NCBI RefSeq assembly: GCF_016482825.1
Contig: NZ_JAEMNV010000003.1
Location: 1-64,000 of the forward strand
Origin: Antrihabitans stalagmiti
Lineage (GTDB): Bacteria; Actinomycetota; Actinomycetes; Mycobacteriales; Mycobacteriaceae
Direction of reading: 5' to 3'
Length of the DNA stretch: 64,000 bases
Numbering within the stretch: the first letter of the stretch is position 1; each line of letters starts with the position of its first letter. The notes beneath the pieces are model-generated. The model was not told the origin of the DNA, did no database searches, and was given only the letters and a program-made list of their open reading frames with translations. A program made the translations under genes and the position numbers. Of this stretch, positions 1 through 55,627 are shown one piece after another.

Positions 1-62
1 TCGGTCATCTGACGCTCGACCTCACCAAGCGATACCAAGGCAAACTGCACGACGCAGCCTAA
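1..62 (+). CDS. C-terminal end of an unidentified protein cut by the window start
   Basis: An open frame enters from the left edge and stops with TAA at 60-62. Its last residues read GHLTLDLTKRYQGKLHDAA, basic and protein-like. An IS-end-like repeat begins just after the stop, so this may be the tail of a transposase or integrase. Too little is visible to assign a family, and the transposase idea is inference only. Confidence 0.35.
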   Translation, partial: GHLTLDLTKRYQGKLHDAA

Positions 63-63
63 A

Positions 64-112
64 ATGTGTCTCGCATGTATCTAGACACATCTGTGCCACA
101 TGTATCTAGACA
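64..112. mobile_element. Putative insertion-sequence end with nested short repeats
   Basis: The 14-mer CATGTATCTAGACA occurs twice, at 74-87 and 99-112, exactly 25 bp apart. ATGTGTCT at 64-71 is the perfect inverse of AGACACAT at 83-90. Such a nested repeat right after the stop of a basic ORF suggests the right end of an insertion sequence. The other end lies outside the window and no target duplication can be checked. Confidence 0.4.
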
Positions 113-117
113 GCACA

Positions 118-159
118 GAGGGCCCGCACGCCGAAAAGACTCACGAGGCGCGTAGCGCC
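118..159. repeat. Truncated copy (A) of a two-hairpin chromosomal repeat
   Basis: The loop remnant GAGGGCCCGC and the right arm CCGAAAAGACTCACGAG (131-147) match the complete copy at 47147-47205 almost base for base. They are followed by a small GGCGC-GTA-GCGCC hairpin (147-159). The left arm is missing and is replaced by the IS-end-like sequence. The element lies about 90 bp past the stop of the dioxygenase-like gene and may serve as its terminator. Confidence 0.6.
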
Positions 160-6194: not shown

Positions 6195-7075
6195 GCTACG
6201 ACGGACTCCTGGCGGCGGAGCAGTCGCAACATGACCGCCGCCGGGAGGTACATCAGCACGCCGTAGATCGCTGGCGGGATCGCCATTTCGTCGTTGCCGA
6301 TCACCGAGATCGCGATGGTGATCGCCAGCGTCGAGTTGTGAATACCGATCTCGAAGCCCGACGCAATTGCCTGGCGGCGTTGTACGCCTGCAAGTTTCGG
6401 AATCCAGTAGCCGATTGCGAGACTCAGCGAGCACAACAGCAACGCGACTGCGCCGATCGTGAGAACGTGCTCGGACAGCGCCTCGAAATTGCCGATCAGG
6501 GCGAGTACGACAACGATGACGAGGATCGCGACCGATGCGATCTTCACCGGCCGTTCCATCCGTGCAGCGAAAGCCGAATACCGTGCGTGCACGAACATTC
6601 CGATGGCAACGGGGACGAGCACGATCGCAAAAACCTGCAGCATCTTCTGCGGCTGCAAGCCGATGTTCTCGTCGCCGTCCAGGAAGTATGCGACCGAAAG
6701 TCCGACGATGAGCGGCAGGGTGACGACGGCGAGCACGGAATTGATCGCCGTCAGCGTGATGTTCAATGCGACGTCACCGCCTGCCAGGTGGCTGAACAGG
6801 TTCGCCGTCGTTCCACCAGGAGCAGCCGCGAGCAGCATCATGCCGACAGCGAGTTCGTTGGGTAGCGCAAACAACAGAACGAGGCCGAAGCAGATCGCCG
6901 GCAGAACGAGTATCTGGACGGCCAGCGCGATGATCGCTGCCTTCGGTACCTTCGCGACTCGCTTGAAGTCGGCGATCGTCAGGGTGAGGCCGAGGCCGAA
7001 CATGATGACGGCCAACGCGAGGGGCAAAAAGATCGTGACGACGGGCGAATCGATCTGACTTGCTGCGAGGGTCAT
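6191..7075 (-). CDS. BASS-family (bile acid:sodium symporter-like) transporter
   Basis: A polytopic membrane protein of about 294 residues with nine to ten hydrophobic segments. The APGGTTANLFSHLAGGDV and EIGIHNSTLAITIA segments are typical of the BASS family (NTCP/ASBT-like), which moves organic anions with sodium. The start at the ATG before LAASQIDSP is preferred; an upstream in-frame start at 7153 would add 26 polar residues. The ribosome-binding site is weak. It is convergent with the MpaB-type gene and divergent from the dicarboxylate carrier. The substrate is not known. Confidence 0.82.
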   Translation of the reverse strand: MTLAASQIDSPVVTIFLPLALAVIMFGLGLTLTIADFKRVAKVPKAAIIALAVQILVLPAICFGLVLLFALPNELAVGMMLLAAAPGGTTANLFSHLAGGDVALNITLTAINSVLAVVTLPLIVGLSVAYFLDGDENIGLQPQKMLQVFAIVLVPVAIGMFVHARYSAFAARMERPVKIASVAILVIVVVLALIGNFEALSEHVLTIGAVALLLCSLSLAIGYWIPKLAGVQRRQAIASGFEIGIHNSTLAITIAISVIGNDEMAIPPAIYGVLMYLPAAVMLRLLRRQESVVA

Positions 7076-45087: not shown

Positions 45088-46641
45088 TCAGTGCATCAGA
45101 AGCGGTGGGGCTGCTTCTTTGTCGTCCTCGACGGGGGCCTTCGGCTTGGTCCGCGGCAAGAAGTACGCGGGGATCAGCGTCAACGCAATCAGCACCACCG
45201 CGACCATAAATGTGTTGCCGAATGCCTCGCCTGCCTGCTGCAGACCAGCCTCCAGCACGCCGGGAACCTTTTCGAGTTCGGCCCTGATGCCGGGGTTCTG
45301 CTGCGACGCGATGGCAGGTCCCGCGAATTCACGATTCTGGATGAGGTTCGTCAGAACAACCGACATCGTTGCCGTACCAACAGATCCGCCGACCTGGTTC
45401 ACGATGTTCATCAGCGTCGAACCGCGTGCGACCTCGTGATGAGTCAGCGTCTGCAGCGCTGCAGTCATGATCGGCATCATCGTGGCGCCCATGCCGAGGC
45501 CCATGACGAACAGCGAGCCGAGCAACAGCGTGTAGGACGTATCTGCGCCGACCTGTGTGAACACGGCCATCGACAGGCCGATAAGGGTGATACCTGCCAT
45601 CACGATCTTGCCGGGTCCGATCTTGTCGACCAGGAAGCCGGCAACTGGCATCGTCAGCATTGCGCCTATGCCCTGCGGGGCAAGCAACAGACCCGCGTGC
45701 AATGTCGATTCTCCTCGCACTTGCAGGAAATAGCTTGGGAAAAGCAGTCCCGCGCCGAAGAATGCGACAGCGAACAGCGACATCGACAGCACAGCGACCG
45801 TCAGATTTCGGTTCTTGAACAAATGCAGATCGATTAGCGGATGTGTGGCCCGCAGCGCGTGGAAGACGAAAACCACGACCAAAATGAATCCGACTATGGC
45901 TGGTATCAGCACCCTGGCCGACGCGATCGTCCCCATCTCCGGGATCGACGAAACGCCGAACAGCAGCAGCGCAAGGCCGGGCGATAGCAGCAGCATGCCG
46001 ACGAAGTCGAACGATTCCGACGGTGACGGATCGTCGGACGGCAGGATGAAGATGGCTGCGATGAGCGCGATGGCGCCGATCGGCACGTTGATCAGGAAGA
46101 TCCAATGCCAGCTGGCGGCTTCGATCAGCCACCCGCCGAGGATCGGTCCGCTGATCGGTCCGAGGAGCATCGGGACTCCGAGTACGGCCATGACGCGACC
46201 GATACGTTGTGGTCCCGCAGCGTGGGTCATGATCGTCATACCGAGCGGCATCAGCATGCCGCCGCCGAAGCCCTGCAGCACGCGGAATCCGATCAGCGAC
46301 GTGATGTCCCATGCGAAGCTGCACGCCACCGAGCCGGCAACGAAGAGCACAAGAGCCGTGATGAACAGCCGTTTGGTGCCGAAACGGTCTGCGCCCCAGC
46401 CTGTCAGCGGAATCACCGTGGCAAGCGCGAGCGTGTATCCGGTCATCGTCCATGCCGCGATGGCGAACGATGTCTCGAAGACGTTGACGAACGTCGGGAT
46501 CGCGACGGTGACGACCGTGAGGTCGAGAATCGACATGATCGCACTGAGCACGACGACTCCGGCGATCTTCAGAACCCGGGCATCGAGCTTGTCGGAGCCG
46601 GCAGCTGGTGCGGCGGAGCCGGTATGTGGAGGTGAGGTCAC
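45088..46641 (-). CDS. MFS multidrug exporter, DHA2 (EmrB/QacA) family
   Basis: A 517-residue membrane protein with about 14 helices. It has the family motif LDLTVVTVAIPTF in helix 1, GWGADRFGTKRLF (motif A) and VLGVPMLLGPISGPILGGWL (motif C, the drug:proton antiporter motif). The GTG at 46641 is preferred over an upstream start that adds 22 atypical residues, although the ribosome site is weak. The substrate is unknown. No adjacent regulator was identified. Confidence 0.87.
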   Translation of the reverse strand: MTSPPHTGSAAPAAGSDKLDARVLKIAGVVVLSAIMSILDLTVVTVAIPTFVNVFETSFAIAAWTMTGYTLALATVIPLTGWGADRFGTKRLFITALVLFVAGSVACSFAWDITSLIGFRVLQGFGGGMLMPLGMTIMTHAAGPQRIGRVMAVLGVPMLLGPISGPILGGWLIEAASWHWIFLINVPIGAIALIAAIFILPSDDPSPSESFDFVGMLLLSPGLALLLFGVSSIPEMGTIASARVLIPAIVGFILVVVFVFHALRATHPLIDLHLFKNRNLTVAVLSMSLFAVAFFGAGLLFPSYFLQVRGESTLHAGLLLAPQGIGAMLTMPVAGFLVDKIGPGKIVMAGITLIGLSMAVFTQVGADTSYTLLLGSLFVMGLGMGATMMPIMTAALQTLTHHEVARGSTLMNIVNQVGGSVGTATMSVVLTNLIQNREFAGPAIASQQNPGIRAELEKVPGVLEAGLQQAGEAFGNTFMVAVVLIALTLIPAYFLPRTKPKAPVEDDKEAAPPLLMH

Positions 46642-46946
46642 CGGTTCAGCCTGGCAGGTTCGTTTGCTCAGCGCTAGTCCGGACAAGGGCCCGAATCCTA
46701 CGGGCACGAGGGTGCCAGTGAGGCAGAACGCCGAGTGCCCACGTCGGTATTCGACCGATTTACCGACTCGACGATTGTTTCGGGCTCAGTAGCTGTAAAT
46801 CTGGATTTGTTTGAACAATGGATCGATCGGAGCCAATTCGAGCAATCCGGTTCGCGGAGAATGAATTGCATTCCGAATTCCCCATAAGACCGGTCAGTAT
46901 GGTAGAAATTGATCGAGTTCGTTGCGCAAGGGGGTAATTCACCACT
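46642..46946. other. AT-richer intergenic region with no recognised gene
   Basis: About 305 bp between the divergent exporter and a small membrane protein gene. The part from about 46780 to 46925 is clearly less GC-rich than its surroundings, as promoter regions are here. No convincing ORF, strong palindrome or RNA fold was found. Confidence 0.45.
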
Positions 46947-47147
46947 ATGGATCGTGCCGTCAAACCTCCGCGTCCCAGATACAAGTTTTCGGTGTTGGGA
47001 TCGGATTGGGTCGAGTGGCTCATCGTCGGATTGCTGTGCGTCGTCGCTGCCCTCGGAATTGCCCTACTGACCGGATCGCTCGGCTATGCGTTGGCCGCTG
47101 GAGTGGTTCTGCTCGCCGCCGCAACGGCGGTAATCGCGTTGCTGTAA
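46947..47147 (+). CDS. Small two-helix membrane protein
   Basis: A 66-residue protein with a polar N-terminus (DRAVKPPRPRYKFSVLGSDWVEW) and two hydrophobic helices (LIVGLLCVVAALGIALLTG and YALAAGVVLLAAATAVIALL). GGGGG lies about ten bases upstream of the ATG. Its stop codon touches copy B of the two-hairpin repeat. No family was recognised. Confidence 0.65.
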   Translation: MDRAVKPPRPRYKFSVLGSDWVEWLIVGLLCVVAALGIALLTGSLGYALAAGVVLLAAATAVIALL

Positions 47148-47205
47148 GCGGCTACGCCGCTCGTGAGTCCTTTCGGAGGGCCCGCCCACCGAAAAGACTC
47201 ACGAG
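47147..47205. repeat. Two-hairpin chromosomal repeat, complete copy B
   Basis: A small hairpin AGCGGC-TAC-GCCGCT (47147-47161) is followed by a large one: CTCGTGAGTCCTTTCGG (47160-47176) with CCGAAAAGACTCACGAG (47189-47205), one mismatch in 17, and the loop AGGGCCCGCCCA. It lies between the 3' ends of two convergent small membrane-protein genes. Copies occur at 118-159 (truncated) and 53629-53687. The role is probably transcription termination or mRNA 3' protection. Confidence 0.78.
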
Positions 47206-47217
47206 GTCGCAGGCCCT

Positions 47218-47418
47218 CTACGGACTCGGCTGCGGTAGTTCGCAATCGGTGACCTTCGGATTGACGCCCACATAGTTCAGTGGCCCGGCAAGTACCGTCA
47301 CAACGATCGTGCCCACACCGGCGCACGACTCTGCCTCACCCTTGTAGTAGCCCCTCTGGCCGGCCGCGATTGCGCCGATGATCAACCAGATGAGTACAAC
47401 TACCGTTGCAATACGCAT
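47218..47418 (-). CDS. Small membrane or exported protein
   Basis: A 66-residue protein with one N-terminal hydrophobic helix (IATVVVLIWLIIGAIAAG). A mature part follows with two Cys (SCAGV and DCELP) that could form a disulfide outside the membrane. The ATG follows GGAGACC. Related short proteins are common in mycobacteria and rhodococci, with no known function. It is convergent with the small two-helix protein, with the repeat element in between. Confidence 0.68.
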   Translation of the reverse strand: MRIATVVVLIWLIIGAIAAGQRGYYKGEAESCAGVGTIVVTVLAGPLNYVGVNPKVTDCELPQPSP

Positions 47419-47511
47419 GGCGGTCTCCTTGTCGCTGAAGGTAACTGGGGACTACCCGCGCGACTAGCAGGAGAAACGTCCTATCAATTGGCTCCTCTGG
47501 TGAAGCGGTCG

Positions 47512-48258
47512 TCACCGCCGGAAGAGCTTGTTACCCAACCACACGATCGGATCGTATTTGCGATCCGCGACGCGCTCCTTCATCGGAATGAGGGCGTTGT
47601 CGGTGATCTTGATGTGCTCCGGGCATACCTCGGTGCAGCACTTGGTGATGTTGCACAGCCCGAGACCATGCTCTTCCTGCGCGACGTCGCGCCGATCGGC
47701 AACGTCGAGCGGATGCATTTCCAACTCCGCAATGCGCATGAGGAACCGCGGCCCCGAGAAGGCTTCCTTGTTCTCCTCGTGATCGCGCACAACGTGACAG
47801 GTGTTCTGGCACAGGAAGCATTCGATACATTTGCGGAATTCCTGGGACCGCTCCACGTCGACCTGCTGCATGCGGTACTCCCCCGGCTTCAGCTCCGGCG
47901 GGGGCGTAAACGATTGCACTTCACGAGCTTTCGCATAGTTGAACGAGACGTCGGTGACGAGGTCTCGCATCACGGGGAAGCTGCGCATCGGAGTGACCGT
48001 GATGACGTCGGCTTCGGTGAAGGTCGACATTCGCGTCATGCAGAGGAGGCGTGGTCGCCCGTTGACCTCCGCCGAACACGACCCGCACTTGCCCGCCTTG
48101 CAGTTCCACCTGACCGCGAGATCCGGCGTCTGCGTTGCCTGTAGCCGATGAATGATGTCGAGGACCACCTCGCCCTCGTTGACCTCGACGGTGTAGTCGT
48201 GGAGCTCTCCACCCTCGATGTCACCGCGCCAGACCCTGAACTTCGCGTCGTAGGACAT
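47512..48258 (-). CDS. sdhB: Succinate dehydrogenase/fumarate reductase iron-sulfur subunit
   Basis: A 248-residue iron-sulfur subunit. The 2Fe-2S cluster ligands are C53, C58, C61 and C73 (CKAGKCGSC). The second motif CIECFLCQNTC (C144, C147, C150, C154) and the late CNITKCCTEVCP supply the 4Fe-4S and 3Fe-4S clusters. It follows the flavoprotein gene directly (1 bp apart). The gene order matches mycobacterial Sdh1 (Rv0247c-Rv0249c type). The complex oxidises succinate and passes electrons to quinone. Confidence 0.93.
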   Translation of the reverse strand: MSYDAKFRVWRGDIEGGELHDYTVEVNEGEVVLDIIHRLQATQTPDLAVRWNCKAGKCGSCSAEVNGRPRLLCMTRMSTFTEADVITVTPMRSFPVMRDLVTDVSFNYAKAREVQSFTPPPELKPGEYRMQQVDVERSQEFRKCIECFLCQNTCHVVRDHEENKEAFSGPRFLMRIAELEMHPLDVADRRDVAQEEHGLGLCNITKCCTEVCPEHIKITDNALIPMKERVADRKYDPIVWLGNKLFRR

Positions 48259-48259
48259 C

Positions 48260-50179
48260 TCAGGACTTCCTTCCAGGATGGTCGGCGAGTTCGCCCTCGG
48301 TGTAGTACTTTTCGAGCTCGCCGATATCGAAGAGCTCGAGCAATTCGCCGCGCATCGCCGTCTGCTCCCGCTTTGCGACGCTCACGCCAGGCACCAGACC
48401 GTCGCCTTCGGCCGGATCGGCCGTACAGACGAGCAATGTGTTGCGCCAGTTCGCGTCCATCTTCGGATAGTCGTCACGGGTGTGGCCGCCACGACTTTCC
48501 GTGCGGAGCAAGGCGGCCTTGGCGACACATTCGCTTATCAGCAACATGTTTCGCAGGTCGATCGCAAGGTGCCAACCCGGATTGAACGGCCGCTGCCCTT
48601 CGACGACTACCCTGCTCATTCGGCCGCGTAGCTCTTCGAGCTTGCCGAGTGCCCGCTCGACCTCTTCTTCCTTGCGGATGATGCCGACGAGGTCGTTCAT
48701 CGATTGCTGCAGATCGGAGTGCACGGTGTACGGGTTCTCCGCGGCGCCGTCGGCAGGTTGATCGAAGGGAACCAACGCATTTCGCGCAGCAGCCTCGACA
48801 TCGGCTGCGGTGACGGATGGACGTTCCTTCAGCGCCGTCACGTATGCCGCGGCGCCGAGGCCCGCTCGACGTCCGAATACCAGTAGGTCCGAAAGCGAGT
48901 TGCCGCCGAGTCGATTCGAGCCGTGCATTCCACCGGAACACTCACCGGCAGCGAAGATTCCGGGCACGCTCGCGGCACCGGTGTCGGGATCGACCTCGAT
49001 CCCGCCCATGACGTAGTGACACGTCGGACCCACTTCCATGGGCTCCTTGGTGATGTCGACGTCGGCGAGTTCGAGGAATTGATGATGCATCGACGGTAGC
49101 CGCCGCTTGATCTCCGCAGCAGGCATCCGCGAGGCGATATCGAGGTAGACCCCGCCGTGTGGGGTGCCACGGCCCGCCTTCACCTCCGAGTTGATGGCAC
49201 GCGCGACCTCGTCGCGTGGCAACAGGTCGGGAGTTCGACGACTGCTGTCGTTGTCCTTGAGCCACGCGTCGGCTTCTTCTTCCGTTTCCGCGTACTGGCC
49301 TTTGAACACCGGTGGGATGTAGTCGAACATAAACCGCTGACCCTCGGTGTTCTTCAAAACGCCACCGTCACCGCGGACCCCCTCGGTGACGAGGATGCCC
49401 TTCACGCTCGGCGGCCAGACCATGCCGGTCGGATGGAACTGGATGAATTCCATGTTGATCAGCGACGCACCGGCCCGCAGCGCGAGAGCATGGCCGTCGC
49501 CGGTGTACTCCCAGGAATTCGACGTCACCTTGAACGACTTGCCGATACCACCCGTCGCGAGCACGACCGCTGGTGTCTCGAAAAGGATGAACCGACCCGA
49601 TTCGCGCCAGTAGCCGAACGCGCCTGCGATCGCGCCGTCTGCTTTGAGCAGCTCCGTCACGGTGCACTCCGCGAAAACCTTGATGCGGGATTCGTAGTCG
49701 CCGGTCTCCTTGAAGTCTTCCTGTTGCAGCGCAACGATTTTCTGCTGCATCGTTCGGATGATTTCGAGTCCGGTGCGGTCGCCGACGTGCGCGAGACGAG
49801 GGTAGGTGTGGCCGCCGAAGTTGCGCTGGCTGATTCGACCGTCCTTGGTCCGGTCGAACAACGCGCCGTACGTCTCGAGTTCCCACACCCGGTCGGGCGC
49901 TTCGCGGGCGTGCAGTTCCGCCATCCGCCAGTTGTTCAGGAACTTGCCACCGCGCATGGTGTCTTTGAAATGCGTCTGCCAGTTGTCCTTCGAGTTCGCG
50001 TTACCCATCGACGCGGCGCACCCGCCCTCGGCCATCACCGTGTGGGCCTTGCCGAACAACGACTTGCAGACGACCGCAACCGTGAAGCCGCGTTCGCGAG
50101 CCTCGATCACGGCTCGGAGTCCGGCACCGCCGGCACCGATCACGACGACGTCGTAGGAGTGCCGTTCAACCTCTGTCAT
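48260..50179 (-). CDS. sdhA: Succinate dehydrogenase/fumarate reductase flavoprotein subunit
   Basis: A 639-residue flavoprotein. It has the FAD-binding loop VVIGAGGAGLRAV near residue 13, KAHTVMAEGG with His46 as candidate covalent FAD ligand, FIQFHPTGM in the active site, and GGIEVD then GLFAAGE-like GIFAAGECSGGMHGSNRLGG. The ATG follows AGGAAACG weakly. It lies between the membrane subunit (80 bp upstream) and sdhB, so the operon order is small protein, anchor, SdhA, SdhB. Confidence 0.94.
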   Translation of the reverse strand: MTEVERHSYDVVVIGAGGAGLRAVIEARERGFTVAVVCKSLFGKAHTVMAEGGCAASMGNANSKDNWQTHFKDTMRGGKFLNNWRMAELHAREAPDRVWELETYGALFDRTKDGRISQRNFGGHTYPRLAHVGDRTGLEIIRTMQQKIVALQQEDFKETGDYESRIKVFAECTVTELLKADGAIAGAFGYWRESGRFILFETPAVVLATGGIGKSFKVTSNSWEYTGDGHALALRAGASLINMEFIQFHPTGMVWPPSVKGILVTEGVRGDGGVLKNTEGQRFMFDYIPPVFKGQYAETEEEADAWLKDNDSSRRTPDLLPRDEVARAINSEVKAGRGTPHGGVYLDIASRMPAAEIKRRLPSMHHQFLELADVDITKEPMEVGPTCHYVMGGIEVDPDTGAASVPGIFAAGECSGGMHGSNRLGGNSLSDLLVFGRRAGLGAAAYVTALKERPSVTAADVEAAARNALVPFDQPADGAAENPYTVHSDLQQSMNDLVGIIRKEEEVERALGKLEELRGRMSRVVVEGQRPFNPGWHLAIDLRNMLLISECVAKAALLRTESRGGHTRDDYPKMDANWRNTLLVCTADPAEGDGLVPGVSVAKREQTAMRGELLELFDIGELEKYYTEGELADHPGRKS

Positions 50180-50258
50180 GGATTACGTTTCCTTCTTGGG
50201 CGAGCCGGGGCGAGCTGAGTGCCGAGATCGACTGCCATGTGAGGAGTCGGCGTCGCCA

Positions 50259-51101
50259 CTAACCGACGAAACGAAGATCTGTCAGAGTTCCGCTCGCGAC
50301 GAGCATTACGTAGAAGTCGGTGAACACGAGCGTGCCGAGCGTGATCCAGGCCAACTGCATGTGCCGTGTGTTCAGCTTCGACACCTGCGTCCAGATCCAG
50401 TACCGGACGGGATGCGCAGAGAAGTGCTTCAATCTGCCGCCGGTGATGTGGCGGCAGGAGTGGCACGACAGTGTGTACGCCCACAATGCGACGACGTTGA
50501 CGACAAGTACGACGTTGCCGAGCCCGAACCCGAACCCGCCGGGTGAGTGGAAGGCAGTTATGGCGTCGTAGGTGTTTATCAACGAGATGACCACCGCCGC
50601 GTAGAACAGGTAGCGATGCGCATTCTGGACGATGAGCGGAAAGCGCGTCTCGCCAGAGTATTTGCTGTGGGGTTCCGCAACGGCGCACGCAGGTGGTGAC
50701 AACCAGAAGGCCCGGTAGTAAGCCTTGCGGTAGTAGTAGCACGTCAGCCGGAAAAGCAGCAGAAACGGCAGTACTACGAAACCGAGCGGTACGAGCATCG
50801 GCAACTCGGGGAACGGTGTGCCGAAGTGGCTCGAACCCGGAACGCACGAATCACTGAGACACGGTGAATAGAACGGCGTGAGGTAGTGATATTCCTCCAC
50901 CCAGTACGCGGTCCGCACGAACGACCGAACCGTCGCGTAAGCGACGAATGCGCCGAGTCCGATGGCCGTCAGAACGGGTGGAATCCACCAACGATCGGTC
51001 CGCAACGTTCGGGCGGAGAGCTGAGCCCGCGTCGAGGAGAAGACGCCAGTTCTACCGTTGTCGTGCTGTTCTGCGTTGCGGTCGGTGGCGGGTGCGCTCA
51101 C
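50259..51101 (-). CDS. Membrane anchor subunit of the Sdh1-type succinate dehydrogenase
   Basis: A 280-residue membrane protein with five or so hydrophobic helices. It matches the mycobacterial Sdh1 anchor (Rv0249c type): long central loop FYSPCLSDSCVPGSSHFGTPF, FRLTCYYYRKAYYRAFW, NAHRYLFYAAVV and LSCHSCRHITGG with heme-type His residues. The GTG at 51101 overlaps the preceding stop (GTGA), which fixes the start. It would carry heme b and the quinone site. Confidence 0.85.
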   Translation of the reverse strand: MSAPATDRNAEQHDNGRTGVFSSTRAQLSARTLRTDRWWIPPVLTAIGLGAFVAYATVRSFVRTAYWVEEYHYLTPFYSPCLSDSCVPGSSHFGTPFPELPMLVPLGFVVLPFLLLFRLTCYYYRKAYYRAFWLSPPACAVAEPHSKYSGETRFPLIVQNAHRYLFYAAVVISLINTYDAITAFHSPGGFGFGLGNVVLVVNVVALWAYTLSCHSCRHITGGRLKHFSAHPVRYWIWTQVSKLNTRHMQLAWITLGTLVFTDFYVMLVASGTLTDLRFVG

Positions 51102-51394
51102 TTGGTCCGCTCGCGCGAGTGGAACCCGAGACCCTCGTCCTGGGCACCCATCCACGCCGATTCGTCGGAGCGGCTGTCCGGGACGTAGATGACGTCGTTT
51201 CGGCGTTCCGGTGCGCCTTTGATCGGAGGTGGTGGCGATTCCTCCAGGTCGGCAGCATCGAGATCGAGACGATCGAGATCGTTGACGAGCCGGGTTATCG
51301 GTCGGGCGTCACCGTACTGCGAGCGAAGCGCGCCGATGCATTGTCTGAGCTGGCCGATTGTCTGGCGAAGCTCGTTTATTTCGGTGGTTGACAT
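51098..51394 (-). CDS. Small conserved protein leading the sdh operon
   Basis: A 98-residue soluble protein. The first ~50 residues are predicted coiled-coil (TEINELRQTIGQLRQCIGAL, then VNDLDRLDLDAADLEE). A Pro-rich linker and a short tail (VIYVPDSRSDESAWMGAQDEG) follow. It corresponds in position and size to Rv0250c, the first gene of the mycobacterial sdh1 operon. Translational coupling to the anchor suggests an assembly or regulatory role, still undefined. Confidence 0.75.
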   Translation of the reverse strand: MSTTEINELRQTIGQLRQCIGALRSQYGDARPITRLVNDLDRLDLDAADLEESPPPPIKGAPERRNDVIYVPDSRSDESAWMGAQDEGLGFHSRERTK

Positions 51395-51525
51395 GGGCTG
51401 TACCTCCGAGGGGGCTGTGTGACGAAGAGCACACTACGTCATGGTAGCCGCGTCTGGCGGGTGGTTCGCCTGCCGAACGATTATGTGACTCAGCTCACTT
51501 TCGAGGCTTCCTCGGAGGACGAACA

Positions 51526-51553
51526 AGGCGGCCGCACACCGGCGCGGCCACCT
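51526..51553. terminator. Hairpin after the LpqN-like gene
   Basis: AGGCGGCCGC (51526-51535) pairs with GCGGCCACCT (51544-51553) with one G-T type mismatch and an 8-base loop. On the minus strand it starts about 30 bp past the ancestral stop at 51585 and is followed by TTGTTC. Confidence 0.6.
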
Positions 51554-51584
51554 CGTTCCGGGATCGAAAAGAGCTGTCGGCTTG

Positions 51585-52301
51585 CTATGGAGTGATGGTT
51601 GTCTTCGTGTTGATTTCCTCGGCAGCGGCGTTGACGATCGCGGCCTGGTCGGGTGTGGCGTCGAGGTTCAACTACAGGACGTAGATGCCGTCCTTCCCCT
51701 CGATGACGACGGTCTTCTGTGCGGCCAGAATCTCTTGTCCGCCTTCGGAGTGCGTACCGGCGATCGCCAACGAGGGAAAACCGGAGAACGTGGATTTGGT
51801 CTCGGGCTGGACCTCTGTGTAGTCGGGCAGGTTCTTCAGTTCGCCGCCCGCGTATTCGATCAACTTCTCTTGGTCGACGTTGCCCTCGAGCTTCGACAGC
51901 AGGGCGATGATGCTCGGCTGATAGTTGCCTGCGTCTGCGCCCGAATAGACAATTGCCGCATATGCCCATTCCGGGGTATTTGCCCCGGCGTTTTCCCAAC
52001 CCGCTGGGAATGTCAGATCGATCGTCGGAGCATTTGGATCGTCGGGCTTGACGGGTGTTTCGGTTATACCGTTCTGCGCGATGTAGTCCGCAATGGTCTC
52101 GTTCGCACCCTCGGTCGATGTCGGTTTCGCCTTGGTCGTCGATTCGGCTTTTCCGCTCGAGGTTGCAGCGGCTGACGTGGTGGCCTGGCTCGACGTGGCC
52201 GACGACGATTTGTCGGAATCGTCCGATCCGCACGCCGCGAGTGCGAGAACGCAGGAAGCGGCGACAACAGCGACCGGAAGTTTCAGCAGAAGTTTTTTCA
52301 T
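51585..52301 (-). pseudogene. LpqN/LpqT-type lipoprotein with a premature stop
   Basis: A lipoprotein with signal region MKKLLLKLPVAVVAASCV and lipobox LAAC, then a Ser/Thr/Ala linker. The LpqN-type domain includes IDLTFPAGWENAGANTPEWAY, PSIIALLSKLEGNVD and FSGFPSLAIAGTHSEGG. Translation stops at TAG 51672-51674 after GKDGIYVL. The same frame continues for 28 coding-like residues (LNLDATPDQAAIVNAAAEE to TITP) to TAG 51585-51587. Family members have Gln at the stop position, so one C-to-T change explains it. The 209-residue product may still be partly functional. Confidence 0.75.
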
Positions 52302-52418
52302 AACGCATTTTGTACGGGTCATTTCCGCTGCACGTCAATGGTTCAGGAGCAATACCGGCACAAGTACCGGCCGACGCTGAGTAGAACTACCGCTTCGACG
52401 ACACGAATTGCCGGAAAA

Positions 52419-53399
52419 TTACCCTGCGGCCAGTTCGGTGATCGGGCGCTGTAGAAGAACCGCGCTGACCCGTTCGACGAGGCTGGTGATCGAGCTGGCC
52501 ACCTCTGCAGCCTGATCGAGTATCACGCCGTGTCCTGCCCCTTCGAGGCACACCAACACCGATCCGGGAAGGCGCGATGCGATCGCTATCGAGTGCTCGA
52601 ACGGAGTGACCACATCCGCCGAGCCGCCGAGAATCAGAGCGGGAATCTGCTCGAGGATCGACAGGGTTTCCGATTCGTCGAAACCGATGAACGATTCGAG
52701 GAAGCCGGACATCGTCACGACGGAGGTCTCGTTGAGCATCGCCGCGGCAACCGCAACCATCCGGGGGCTCACCTTGCGGTTGCCGAAGCCGGCATTGCGC
52801 ACGATGGGCTCACATACGCTGCGGCTCATACGCTTCGAGGCATGCATGACACCGGGTGCCCACTTGACGGCGCCACGGAGTGCGGCAACGGCAGGACGCC
52901 TCAGCCATCGTCCGATACCCGCTTCGGTGAGTCTGCTCGCAGCCGAGGCGATGAGACCGACACCGACTATGCGGGTGCCGATTTCGGCGGGATTCTGGCG
53001 CGCGTAGACGAGTGCGGTCATGGCACCCATCGAGTGCCCGACGAGCACGATCGGTCCGGTCGGGACGACCGCACGAAGAACGGCGGACAGATCGCTGCCG
53101 AGCTGATCGAGATTGTAAGTGTCGTAAGGGGCTTCGCCCGATTCGCCGTGACCACGGTGGTCGTAGAAGACCATGCGGACCTCGGTACCCCAGGTCTGCG
53201 TGAGGTGGCTCCGGAGGTAGGTCCACGAGTCGGTTCGGAGGCAATGCCCGTGTACGAACACGACAGTCAACGGGGCGTCCGGTCGACCGAATTCGCGGAC
53301 CGCGAGCGGTACGCCGTCGTCGGCTGACACGGTAATGCGATGCCCGTCGATATCGGCGGCGGGTACGACTCGAGCGGTGGCGAATCGAGTAGTCGACAT
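52419..53399 (-). CDS. Alpha/beta-fold hydrolase
   Basis: A 326-residue hydrolase. It has FVHGHCL (oxyanion region), DHRGHGES, the nucleophile elbow GHSMG with Ser123, GGSADVVTP with the acid, and a final EGAGHGVI with His. There is no signal peptide. It resembles actinobacterial epoxide hydrolase/lipase-type proteins without clear assignment. The ATG at 53399 follows GGGAGA; the longer in-frame form would run into the upstream repeat. Confidence 0.82.
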   Translation of the reverse strand: MSTTRFATARVVPAADIDGHRITVSADDGVPLAVREFGRPDAPLTVVFVHGHCLRTDSWTYLRSHLTQTWGTEVRMVFYDHRGHGESGEAPYDTYNLDQLGSDLSAVLRAVVPTGPIVLVGHSMGAMTALVYARQNPAEIGTRIVGVGLIASAASRLTEAGIGRWLRRPAVAALRGAVKWAPGVMHASKRMSRSVCEPIVRNAGFGNRKVSPRMVAVAAAMLNETSVVTMSGFLESFIGFDESETLSILEQIPALILGGSADVVTPFEHSIAIASRLPGSVLVCLEGAGHGVILDQAAEVASSITSLVERVSAVLLQRPITELAAG

Positions 53400-53628
53400 G
53401 TCGGTCTCCCGTGTTTGGGTTCCTGACCGGTTGTCGCGTGGGGCTGCGACTCCGTTACTACTGCAGAACAAACTTCTTTGCTGCGGTAGATGGATGGTCG
53501 CCCAGAAGTTGCCTGTACCGATGGGTAGCAAAGCAACCGTTATCGTCCCGGTGTGCAAACGACGCCGAAATATAGTTTGCGAGCCTTGTATTCCCGAGTC
53601 TTCCAATGTCTACGAAAAGGGCTAGAAC
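53400..53628. other. Intergenic promoter region
   Basis: About 229 bp between the hydrolase start and the two-hairpin repeat. It contains no convincing ORF or strong repeat. It probably holds only the hydrolase promoter. Confidence 0.45.
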
Positions 53629-53687
53629 CTCGTGAGTCCTTTTGGAGGACAGGACCTCCGAAAGGACTCACGAGCGGCGTAGCCGCC
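53629..53687. repeat. Two-hairpin chromosomal repeat, complete copy C
   Basis: Left arm CTCGTGAGTCCTTTTGGAGG (53629-53648) and right arm CCTCCGAAAGGACTCACGAG (53655-53674) pair at 19 of 20 positions around a six-base loop. A small hairpin GCGGC-GTA-GCCGC (53674-53686) separates it from the FadE10-like stop codon at 53687-53689. Relative to that gene the order is stop, small hairpin, large hairpin, as in copies A and B. Confidence 0.8.
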
Positions 53688-55627
53688 TATTTTGTCGGCG
53701 GCAGGAATGGGCGTGACAGATTTTCCTCCGTCGAGGCACCCGGCTCCCATTCCGAGATCCAGGGTCCGGTTCCTTCGCTCTGGTCGAGGACGCCTTGTTC
53801 GAGCCATTCGTAGCGACCGTCGAGAACGCTTTCGGCGATGCGGCCGTCGAGGTCGTCCGTGTTCTGCCACAGCGCTGCGAAAAGGTTCTCGACCCGCAGT
53901 GTCGCCTGTTCGCAGAATGCCTCAGCGAGTTCGAATGCGGTGTCACCTTCGGCCGGATCGCCGGCTCGCTGACTTTGCGCGCGGACGATGACGGCCGACA
54001 TCGCGAACAGTTCCGCACCGATGTCGACGATTCTGCCGAGGAATCCCTGCCGATATTCGAGCTTGGCCTGCCAGCGCGCCATGCCGTAGAGCATGGACCT
54101 GGCCAGTTTGCGCGAGCTACGTTCGACGAAGCGCAGATGTGTTGCGAGTGAGTCGAATTCGCTGTAGGAGGTCGGCAGTTGGCCCTTACCCGCGACCAGT
54201 TGCGGCATCCATTTGACGTAGAAGCCGCTCGCCTTGACGGCGGACTTTGCCTTCGCGCTCGTGGGTGCTTTCGCATTGACGAGATCGCCGGCAGCGACGA
54301 CGTGCGCGTCGGATGCTTCCCGCGCGACGAGAAGTCGCATTATTTCGCTCGATCCTTCGAAGATCCGGTTTATCCGAAGATCGCGAAGAAGTTGCTCGGC
54401 CGGCACTGCTCGCTCGCCGCGTGCCTTCAACGAGTCCGCCGTTTCGTAGCCGCGTCCGCCACGAATCTGCACCAACTCGTCCGCGATCCGGCAACTCATC
54501 TCGCTTGCCCACAGCTTCGCGAGCGCTGCCTCGATCCGGATGTCGTTACGTCCCTCGTCGGCCATCTGTCCGGACAGATCGAGGACCGCCTCCTGTGCGT
54601 AGGTGGTCGCCGCGATGAACGAGAGTTTCGCCGCGACCGACGCGTGTTTGCCGACCGGACGTCCCCACTGGACGCGTTCGGCAGACCATTCGCGCGCGAT
54701 CTTCAGGCTCCATTTGCTTGCCGCGGCGCACAGGGCGGGAATGGCGAGCCTGCCGGCATTGAGTGTGGTCAGCGCGATCTTGAGACCGTCGCCTTCACGG
54801 CCGACGAGGTTCTCTTTCGGCACCCGGACGTTGTGCATTCGGGTGACGCCGTTCTCGATACCGCGCAGGCCCATGAACCTGTTGCGCCGCTCGACGGTGA
54901 CACCGGGTGCTGCCGCTTCGACGATGAACGCCGAGATGCCGCCTCGGTGCCCGTCGCTCTTGGGTACTCGCGCCATGACGACGAGCAACTCTGCGACGAC
55001 GCCGTTGGTCGTCCACAGCTTCACGCCGTTGAGTTCGTAGGCGGACCCACCTTCGATCGGAACCGCCGAGCTCGCCATCCGCGCCGGGTCGGATCCGACG
55101 TCGGGTTCGGTCAGCAGAAAGGCGCTGATGGCCCCGCGGGCGCAGCGGGGCAGGAACTCGGCCTTCTGTTCCGGAGTGCCGGCAAGTTTGAGTGGTTCGG
55201 GTACGCCGATCGATTGGTGTGCCGACATCAACGCGCCGAGCGATGCATGGACGGATCCGATCAGCATCAGCGCTTTGTTGTAGGAGACCTGAGACAAGCC
55301 GAGTCCGCCGTATTCGGGCGGGATCTTCAGGCCGAAGCAGCCGAGTTCGGCGAAGCCTCTGATGTATTCGTCGGGTATCCGTTCCTCGCGCTCGATCAGT
55401 GATCCGTCGACCGTCTCGCAGAACGTGGCAAGTTTGGCTAGGAATTTCGCGGCTACAGCTGTCTCGGCTGCGGGGGGACTTGGATACGGGTGGACGAGAT
55501 CGAGTTGGAAGCGGCCGAGGAAGAGTTCTTTGCAGAACGAGGGTTTGTCCCAGCCGCTGACTCGCGACTCCTCGACGAGTGCTCTCGATTGCTCTTCGGT
55601 CGGTTCTACTTTCTGCGTTGCCACCAC
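53687..55627 (-). CDS. fadE10: Acyl-CoA dehydrogenase, FadE10-like
   Basis: A 646-residue acyl-CoA dehydrogenase very like mycobacterial FadE10. The opening ESRVSGWDKPSFCKELFLG, GCFGLKIPPEYGGLGLSQV, SAFLLTEPDVGSDPARM, KLWTTNGVVAELLVVM, FMGLRGIENGVTRMHNV and RINRIFEGSSEIMRLLVARE all follow that protein. The last segment is the Glu-bearing catalytic loop region. A C-terminal extension continues to LDQSEGTGPWI. GTG starts at 55627 or 55624 follow AGGAGG. It is monocistronic and is terminated by the two-hairpin repeat. Confidence 0.88.
   Translation of the reverse strand: MVATQKVEPTEEQSRALVEESRVSGWDKPSFCKELFLGRFQLDLVHPYPSPPAAETAVAAKFLAKLATFCETVDGSLIEREERIPDEYIRGFAELGCFGLKIPPEYGGLGLSQVSYNKALMLIGSVHASLGALMSAHQSIGVPEPLKLAGTPEQKAEFLPRCARGAISAFLLTEPDVGSDPARMASSAVPIEGGSAYELNGVKLWTTNGVVAELLVVMARVPKSDGHRGGISAFIVEAAAPGVTVERRNRFMGLRGIENGVTRMHNVRVPKENLVGREGDGLKIALTTLNAGRLAIPALCAAASKWSLKIAREWSAERVQWGRPVGKHASVAAKLSFIAATTYAQEAVLDLSGQMADEGRNDIRIEAALAKLWASEMSCRIADELVQIRGGRGYETADSLKARGERAVPAEQLLRDLRINRIFEGSSEIMRLLVAREASDAHVVAAGDLVNAKAPTSAKAKSAVKASGFYVKWMPQLVAGKGQLPTSYSEFDSLATHLRFVERSSRKLARSMLYGMARWQAKLEYRQGFLGRIVDIGAELFAMSAVIVRAQSQRAGDPAEGDTAFELAEAFCEQATLRVENLFAALWQNTDDLDGRIAESVLDGRYEWLEQGVLDQSEGTGPWISEWEPGASTEENLSRPFLPPTK

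Follow-up and report, generated by a model that had tools for sequence, protein, structure and literature searches.

A dispersed family of 46-bp palindromic elements enriched at gene ends in Antrihabitans stalagmiti and other actinobacteria

Introduction

Bidirectional intrinsic terminators are hairpins located between convergent genes and usable from both sides. The palindrome described here also sits between convergent genes, but it is not accompanied by a U-tract and its sequence is common to about 200 loci.

REP and BIME elements associated with RAYT transposases, as presented in the available part of PMC2817692, resemble this palindrome in occurring as more than 100 short palindromic extragenic copies per genome. 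The family nevertheless differs from them in lacking a PF01797 match in all four congeners, and in having a near-constant 46-bp dyad, an outer half-site of its own and, in the genome under study, triloop hairpins. Insertion sequences that target REPs, for example ISRm22 and ISPsy8, are reported in the available part of PMC1525189 to generate direct repeats of 6 bp and 3 bp respectively. They are comparable with the insertion sequence (IS) encountered here, since every copy is inserted at one point of the palindrome, at the symmetry axis; unlike those elements, the IS described below has a 14-bp duplication symmetric about the dyad and an actinobacterial host. A survey of stem-loop structures, which also mentions bidirectional terminators, states in its available part that such structures favour convergent gaps and the 50 bp after stop codons, describes three new repeat families (from Yersiniae, Bordetellae and Enterococci) and covers Corynebacterium and Mycobacterium as its only high-GC actinobacteria (PMC1590033). 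The same preference for convergent gaps and the 50 bp following stop codons is found in the palindrome family.

Searches of open-licence papers, including searches with 10-base strings, gave nothing on these palindromes among the papers listed, and they look like an undescribed small-repeat family. The analysis establishes a dispersed palindromic family that recurs as a unit, is enriched at gene ends and has an architecture common to members of two families of the order.

Results and Discussion

Structure of the element

The stretch of DNA analysed (the window, 64,000 nt) belongs to a genome of 6.39 Mb, referred to as G000, which was compared with three congeners (G001, G002 and G003) in a four-genome sample of the genus. 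The unit in G000 is a 46-bp interrupted palindrome, CTCGTGAGTCYTTTCGG...CCRAAARGACTCACGAG, most sides of which are flanked by a small GC hairpin. The full element runs from a stop codon through a small hairpin to the 46-bp core, and on through a second small hairpin to the stop codon of the facing gene. The core consists of two inverted half-sites of about 22 bp each around a central 2 bp that are usually not self-complementary, with the consensus CTCGTG(A/c)GTC(Y)TTT(C/t)GG(A/T/C)GG... followed by its reverse complement. It contains a TGA stop codon at positions 5-7 and a variable part at positions 18-29. The loop AGGGCCCGC, which the earlier note on this DNA regarded as partly conserved, falls in this variable part and shows no special conservation.

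The three copies that had been noticed in the window were confirmed in the sequence. Copy 2 has an intact core (47160..47205, unstranded) and is touched on both sides by stop codons. Its left small hairpin, GCGGC-TAC-GCCGC (47148..47160, plus strand), lies directly 3' of the TAA of the plus-strand gene (47145-47147), and the stretch with the right small hairpin, which has one mismatch (47205..47217, minus strand), lies directly 3' of the TAG of the convergent gene (47218-47220, minus strand). The core of copy 3 (53629..53674, unstranded) is also intact, and a small hairpin, GCGGC-TAC-GCCGC (53674..53686, minus strand), separates it from the TAG (53687-53689) of the minus-strand gene 53687-55627, which by its sequence is acyl-CoA-dehydrogenase-like; a matching hairpin on the other side of this core was not found. 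Copy 1 retains core positions 17-46 (118..147, unstranded) and a small hairpin, GGCGC-TAC-GCGCC on the minus strand (147..159). It is truncated because an IS has split the core, leaving the halves at the window start and at the end of contig C4 (locus L096), where the left part is found. The frame that ends at a TAA (161-163) spans only 34 open codons, and contact of this copy with a real stop codon is therefore not clear. This agrees with the earlier note, in which the small hairpin touches the stop codon in two copies.

Among 192 sides examined in G000, 127 carry a small hairpin with at least four of five stem pairs; of these, 121 form all five pairs and 122 have a TNC loop. The second and third stem pairs alternate between C-G and G-C on these sides (82/43 and 75/51, respectively). 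When any stem and loop type is allowed the count rises to 163 of 192, compared with 14 after shuffling. The order of stop codon, small hairpin and large hairpin, which had been read as a fixed polarity, is present and follows in part from the symmetry of an element most of whose sides carry a small hairpin. Small hairpins are also found in Rhodococcoides kyotonense (9/28 sides; 0 shuffled) and in two further genera of the family, represented by three copies (5/6 sides; 2 shuffled). There is no excess over shuffled sequences in G003 (1/72 sides; 3 shuffled), Qaidamihabitans albus (5/92; 3), Amycolatopsis xylanica (3/24; 1) or the other order-level copies (1/66; 5). The small hairpins are an addition found in some lineages. 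Their loop reads GNA on the opposite strand, and GNA loops form very stable DNA mini-hairpins. We also considered whether the small hairpin stands alone; coding stops followed by an all-GC 5-bp hairpin that lacks a core number 0/102 at G000 loci and 0/14 in the window.

The predicted RNA folds of copies 2 and 3 are GC-rich hairpins of -39.7 kcal/mol (z -4.9) and -42.4 kcal/mol (z -7.9), respectively, as expected of intrinsic terminators. However, no U-tract lies directly 3' of the large hairpin, as the bases toward the neighbouring gene start with GTCGCAGGCC (copy 2, plus strand) and GTTCTAGCCC (copy 3, minus strand), and the element is therefore not a canonical intrinsic terminator. A terminator scan of positions 46500-54500 gave 8 terminator-like sites compared with 6.6 in shuffled sequences; one of these is the small hairpin of copy 3 on the plus strand, reading into the end of the gene. 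The window has no match above the gathering score in Rfam 15. A REP-type transposase was considered as well. PF01797 was absent from all four genus genomes, the same search being positive in 5 of 14 control genomes, and by this Y1-transposase test the element is not a REP. Its description as REP-like is therefore apt for its habit and not for its transposase.

Copy number and distribution

Exact matches to the half-site pattern CTCGTGAGTCYTTT in the G000 genome number 140 forward and 135 reverse, whereas the reversed control has none in either direction, and the 46-bp pattern with at most three mismatches occurs at 197 places. This is the abundance of short palindromic extragenic copies associated with REPs, and it excludes the outcome that few or no further copies exist. 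Within the genus sample G003 has 140 forward and 138 reverse half-site matches, in its own version, and G001 and G002 have none. A covariance-model search, as the earlier note had proposed, gave at least 150 matches each in G000 and G003, four weak matches in G001 (best E 0.018) and two in G002 (best 0.10). In G003, 11 of 36 sampled copies, part of which were picked by best model score, have one common 46-mer, which bears out the view that the copies are more conserved than independent terminators should be.

Across 301 genomes of the family the exact half-site is present only in G000 and G003, plus a single match in G055. A wider pattern, CTCGTGAGTN{24,34}ACTCACGAG, which allows lengths of 42 to 52, is found in 20 of 397 genomes of the order and 7 of 86 genera, with 4 genomes in family f1 and 16 in family f14; the control gave 0 in the entries with matches. 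To judge from the names among the matching genomes, f14 is Pseudonocardiaceae. The highest counts are 120 (G362), 106 (G000), 94 (G509), 40 (G368) and 37 (G526), the remainder having fewer. Among the first places listed for each genome, most are 46 bp and eight are 44, 45 or 47 bp. Because the pattern demands exact outer half-sites, it overlooks degenerate copies, and part of the outer conservation seen across genera is imposed by the pattern.

Five of 24 named genomes match: Q. albus (278), R. kyotonense JCM 23211 (13), A. xylanica (9), and R. kyotonense KB10 and Rhodococcus tibetensis with one match each. There is no match in the other 19, including Skermania sp. ID1734, by one protein (85%) the closest named relative in a set that may lack the records nearest to the window. 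Paired half-sites span exactly 46 bp in 84 of 86 cases in Q. albus and 141 of 144 in G000. In the sampled stretches, single half-sites account for only 2/88 in Q. albus and 7/151 in G000, six of the latter being IS-split; the idea that the half-sites are the ends of a larger IS accordingly finds no support in these stretches, where they are almost never single. Copy 2 has no blastn match in plasmids or phages, and a second element type has none in plasmids. Three viral contigs carry the pattern: one (L334) conforms to the 46-bp type, one (L335) lacks a palindromic interior and one (L336) has a 50-bp element. The element in L334 (positions 29-74, from an IMG/VR contig) lies near the edge of that contig stretch, which may be host DNA.

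Location at gene ends

Genes were called by a simple codon-score method trained on the window, which misses small genes. For 68 sampled G000 copies a gene 3' end is located within 60 nt on both sides in 23 cases, on one side in 33 and on neither in 12. The corresponding expectations are 2.6%, 25% and 72% by window intergenic base, and 12%, 50% and 37% by gap. At least one gene 3' end therefore lies within this distance in 56/68 copies, against a random 28% by base and 63% by gap, and the 197 places are in line with the earlier proposal of a dispersed repeat family tied to 3' ends. G003 is similar, with 11, 12 and 2 of 25 copies in the three classes. Within 80 nt the figures are 24, 11 and 2 of 37 in other genera, 23, 20 and 3 of 46 in Q. 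albus, 11, 3 and 0 of 14 in R. kyotonense, and 3, 6 and 3 of 12 in A. xylanica. For Q. albus the expectation, calculated within 60 nt, is 7%, 28% and 65% by base and 18%, 55% and 27% by gap. In stretches of at least 12 kb from this organism, chosen for holding copies, a copy is carried by 16/43 convergent, 15/133 tandem and 1/33 divergent gaps.

The stop-to-core distance on 79 G000 sides has peaks at 12 (30 sides), -7 (16) and 13 (9), and the stop codon at distance 12 is TAG on 28 of the 79. The neighbouring gene ends on the internal TGA of the core on 16/79 sides in G000 and 25/66 in Q. albus. All 10 convergent gaps that the gene calls give for the window lack a copy; the small neighbours of copy 2 escaped these calls, and its gap is one more. 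The convergent gaps of the window are thus mostly empty, which indicates that the element is not a needed terminator.

The gap between the two convergent stop codons at copy 2 is 70 nt in G000, 12 nt in G002 and 7 nt in G003, and by eye both flanking proteins end at matching places in G002 and G003. The unit was either added in G000 or lost in the relatives. No target duplication was seen by eye in the flanks or at one empty orthologous gap; the element is an inverted repeat throughout. For the gene next to copy 3, the matches listed include none at the equivalent place in G001-G003. A comparison of 105 G000 with 27 G003 loci (some overlapping), which represent only part of the copies in each genome, gave 25 locus pairs with a protein match at E 1e-8, the best with 60.5% identity. 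In the four best pairs there is no common element-adjacent gene, the genes being different or otherwise arranged.

Insertion sequence at the palindrome centre

Exact 16- and 18-base searches for IS ends revealed one IS with six left and eight right ends, each of which lies close to the end of a contig and meets the core at one and the same point, the palindrome centre. Each of the six left ends has a right-end partner with an identical 14-bp duplication, which covers core positions 17-30 and is symmetric about the dyad; for the right ends at L196 and L203 no partner left end was found. One such junction pair is formed by the start of the window and the end of contig C4. Positions 1..117 (plus strand) are the right end of the IS that split copy 1, comprising the last codons of an ORF and then the terminal part, and the 14-bp duplication GAGGGCCCGCACGC (118..131, unstranded) is identical to that at the other junction (L096). 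A mobile element thus uses the palindrome as a landing site.

This IS may be IS481-like. In G001-G003 nothing matches the C-terminal portion of its ORF, and the transposase fragments have no match in Pfam, PHROGs or plasmids; the only NCBIfam match is to a wall hydrolase, far below the cut-off (12.4 bits compared with 425). In viral contigs 22 stretches fit a peptide pattern and none is matched by tblastn. The IS is not found whole in the G000 assembly, in which its ends (window 1-117; L095-L100 and L196-L203) close several contigs. The splitting of copy 1, the fixed 46-bp length and the wider family are absent from the first reading of this DNA.

Conservation of the core

The pairing of the core was compared across lineages with 36 hand-chosen 46-bp cores from several lineages. 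In this set 93.9% of core cells are paired, compared with 71.7% after shuffling, and the covariation of the core stem is 0.539, compared with 0.126 shuffled and no more than 0.123 with a slid partner. Thirteen pairs show a double change, a number reached in 125 of 500 shuffles. The inner core sequence is lineage-specific and the dyad symmetry is kept across lineages.

Covariation within genomes is weaker. Among 96 G000 copies the arms match at position 11 more often than expected (61 vs 48.9) and at position 21 less often (33 vs 46.1), with positions 18 (51 vs 46.2), 15 (70 vs 71.6) and 7 (80 vs 76.5) nearer to expectation; this weak between-arm covariation is not as selection on pairing alone would give. 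Inner-arm matches number 424/552 in Q. albus (shuffled mean 400, maximum 423 in 1000) and 154/168 in R. kyotonense (135 shuffled), and there is no excess in A. xylanica (117/144 vs 113; shuffles up to 124). The two halves therefore each look as if they were read independently, and they match to some extent. A self-complementary central 2 bp occurs in 0/46 copies in Q. albus, 0/14 in R. kyotonense, 0/12 in A. xylanica, 5/36 in G003 and 10/96 in G000, the last two samples being biased toward copies found through an exact arm or best model scores.

Possible functions

We favour, with a probability of about one half, the reading that the element is a two-way gene-end module. In G000, transcripts arriving from either side would meet a small hairpin after the stop codon and then a hairpin of 20-22 bp, and these hairpins would end or protect the mRNA. 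A protein may be bound to the outer half-sites CTCGTGAGT, and with its internal TGA the core brings along its own stop codon. In these actinobacteria, transcripts often end without a U-tract. That the copies are independent ordinary terminators, alike by chance or shared composition, has practically no likelihood left: the 3'-end location would suit this explanation, but it is refuted by 275 exact half-site matches against 0 in the control, and identical copies and the missing U-tract also oppose it. A purely selfish miniature element, moved by a putative transposase or recombinase, without a role at RNA ends and with a gene-end bias due to loss of other insertions, is somewhat unlikely. It would agree with the presence of the palindrome in two of four genus genomes, each with its own version, with identical copies behind unrelated genes, with the empty orthologous gap at copy 2 and the mostly empty convergent gaps of the window, and with the lack of a common element-adjacent gene among the sampled G000 and G003 loci. 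However, the precision with which the element adjoins stop codons (TAG at distance 12 on 28 of 79 sides) exceeds what loss of harmful insertions predicts, length and outer half-sites recur in two families (in pattern-based searches), and neither a target duplication nor a parent element was found, half-sites being rarely single in the sampled stretches.

The constancy of the 46-bp length in both Q. albus and G000 paired half-sites, the degeneracy of both halves at the same positions with little covariation in G000, and the seldom self-complementary central 2 bp are features that might instead be expected of a DNA site for a dimeric protein. Such a protein (a roadblock, a nucleoid protein or a serine-recombinase-like enzyme) would read the 46-bp spacing and the asymmetric centre rather than an RNA hairpin, and the inner part is indeed lineage-dependent while the outer part, which the search pattern demands, recurs. 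We consider this decidedly unlikely, as there is no candidate protein, a genome with hundreds of active recombination sites would be scrambled, the flanking small hairpins vary as paired structures and the search itself accounts for part of the outer conservation across genera. A bolder proposal, unlikely though slightly less so, is that the palindromes form an undescribed class of 46-bp protein-read 3'-end sites in several genera of Mycobacteriaceae and Pseudonocardiaceae, with CTCGTGAGT at a fixed spacing, non-self-complementary central 2 bp and an inner half that changes by lineage with the binding protein, which would either stop RNA polymerase from both sides as a roadblock terminator or move the site.

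If the gene-end role is true, these actinobacteria have a recognisable family of gene-end sites, with natural pairs of orthologous gaps with and without the element. A lineage-specific palindrome family without RAYT bears on how such repeats spread, and it adds an IS with a sharp, symmetric target.

Other palindromes

A G000 copy at L061:2001-2048 has one extra base per arm (48 bp, CTTCAGG...CCTGAAG), the arms having changed in step. Two identical Q. albus copies with identical left flanks (L351; C1:530664 and 531130) are 466 bp apart with N nearby, and are either a local duplication or an assembly artefact. Another type of palindrome, GTGCGTGAGTTTGGCC...GGCCAAACTCACGCAC, follows a TAG and a TNC hairpin in G003 (L090:1112-1151) and is perhaps a sister family. 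The A. xylanica palindrome TCGTGCGCGTTGCGGGCGG...CCGCCCGCAACGCGCACGA (L194:5125-5168) possibly shares this architecture, its outer half-site having changed so that the search pattern misses it. Mycobacterium kyorinense encodes two long palindromes of one sequence (CGAGCGTCGAGTTGTTGGGCGAAAT...; L128:5939-5994 and 6901-6960), located about 960 bp apart.
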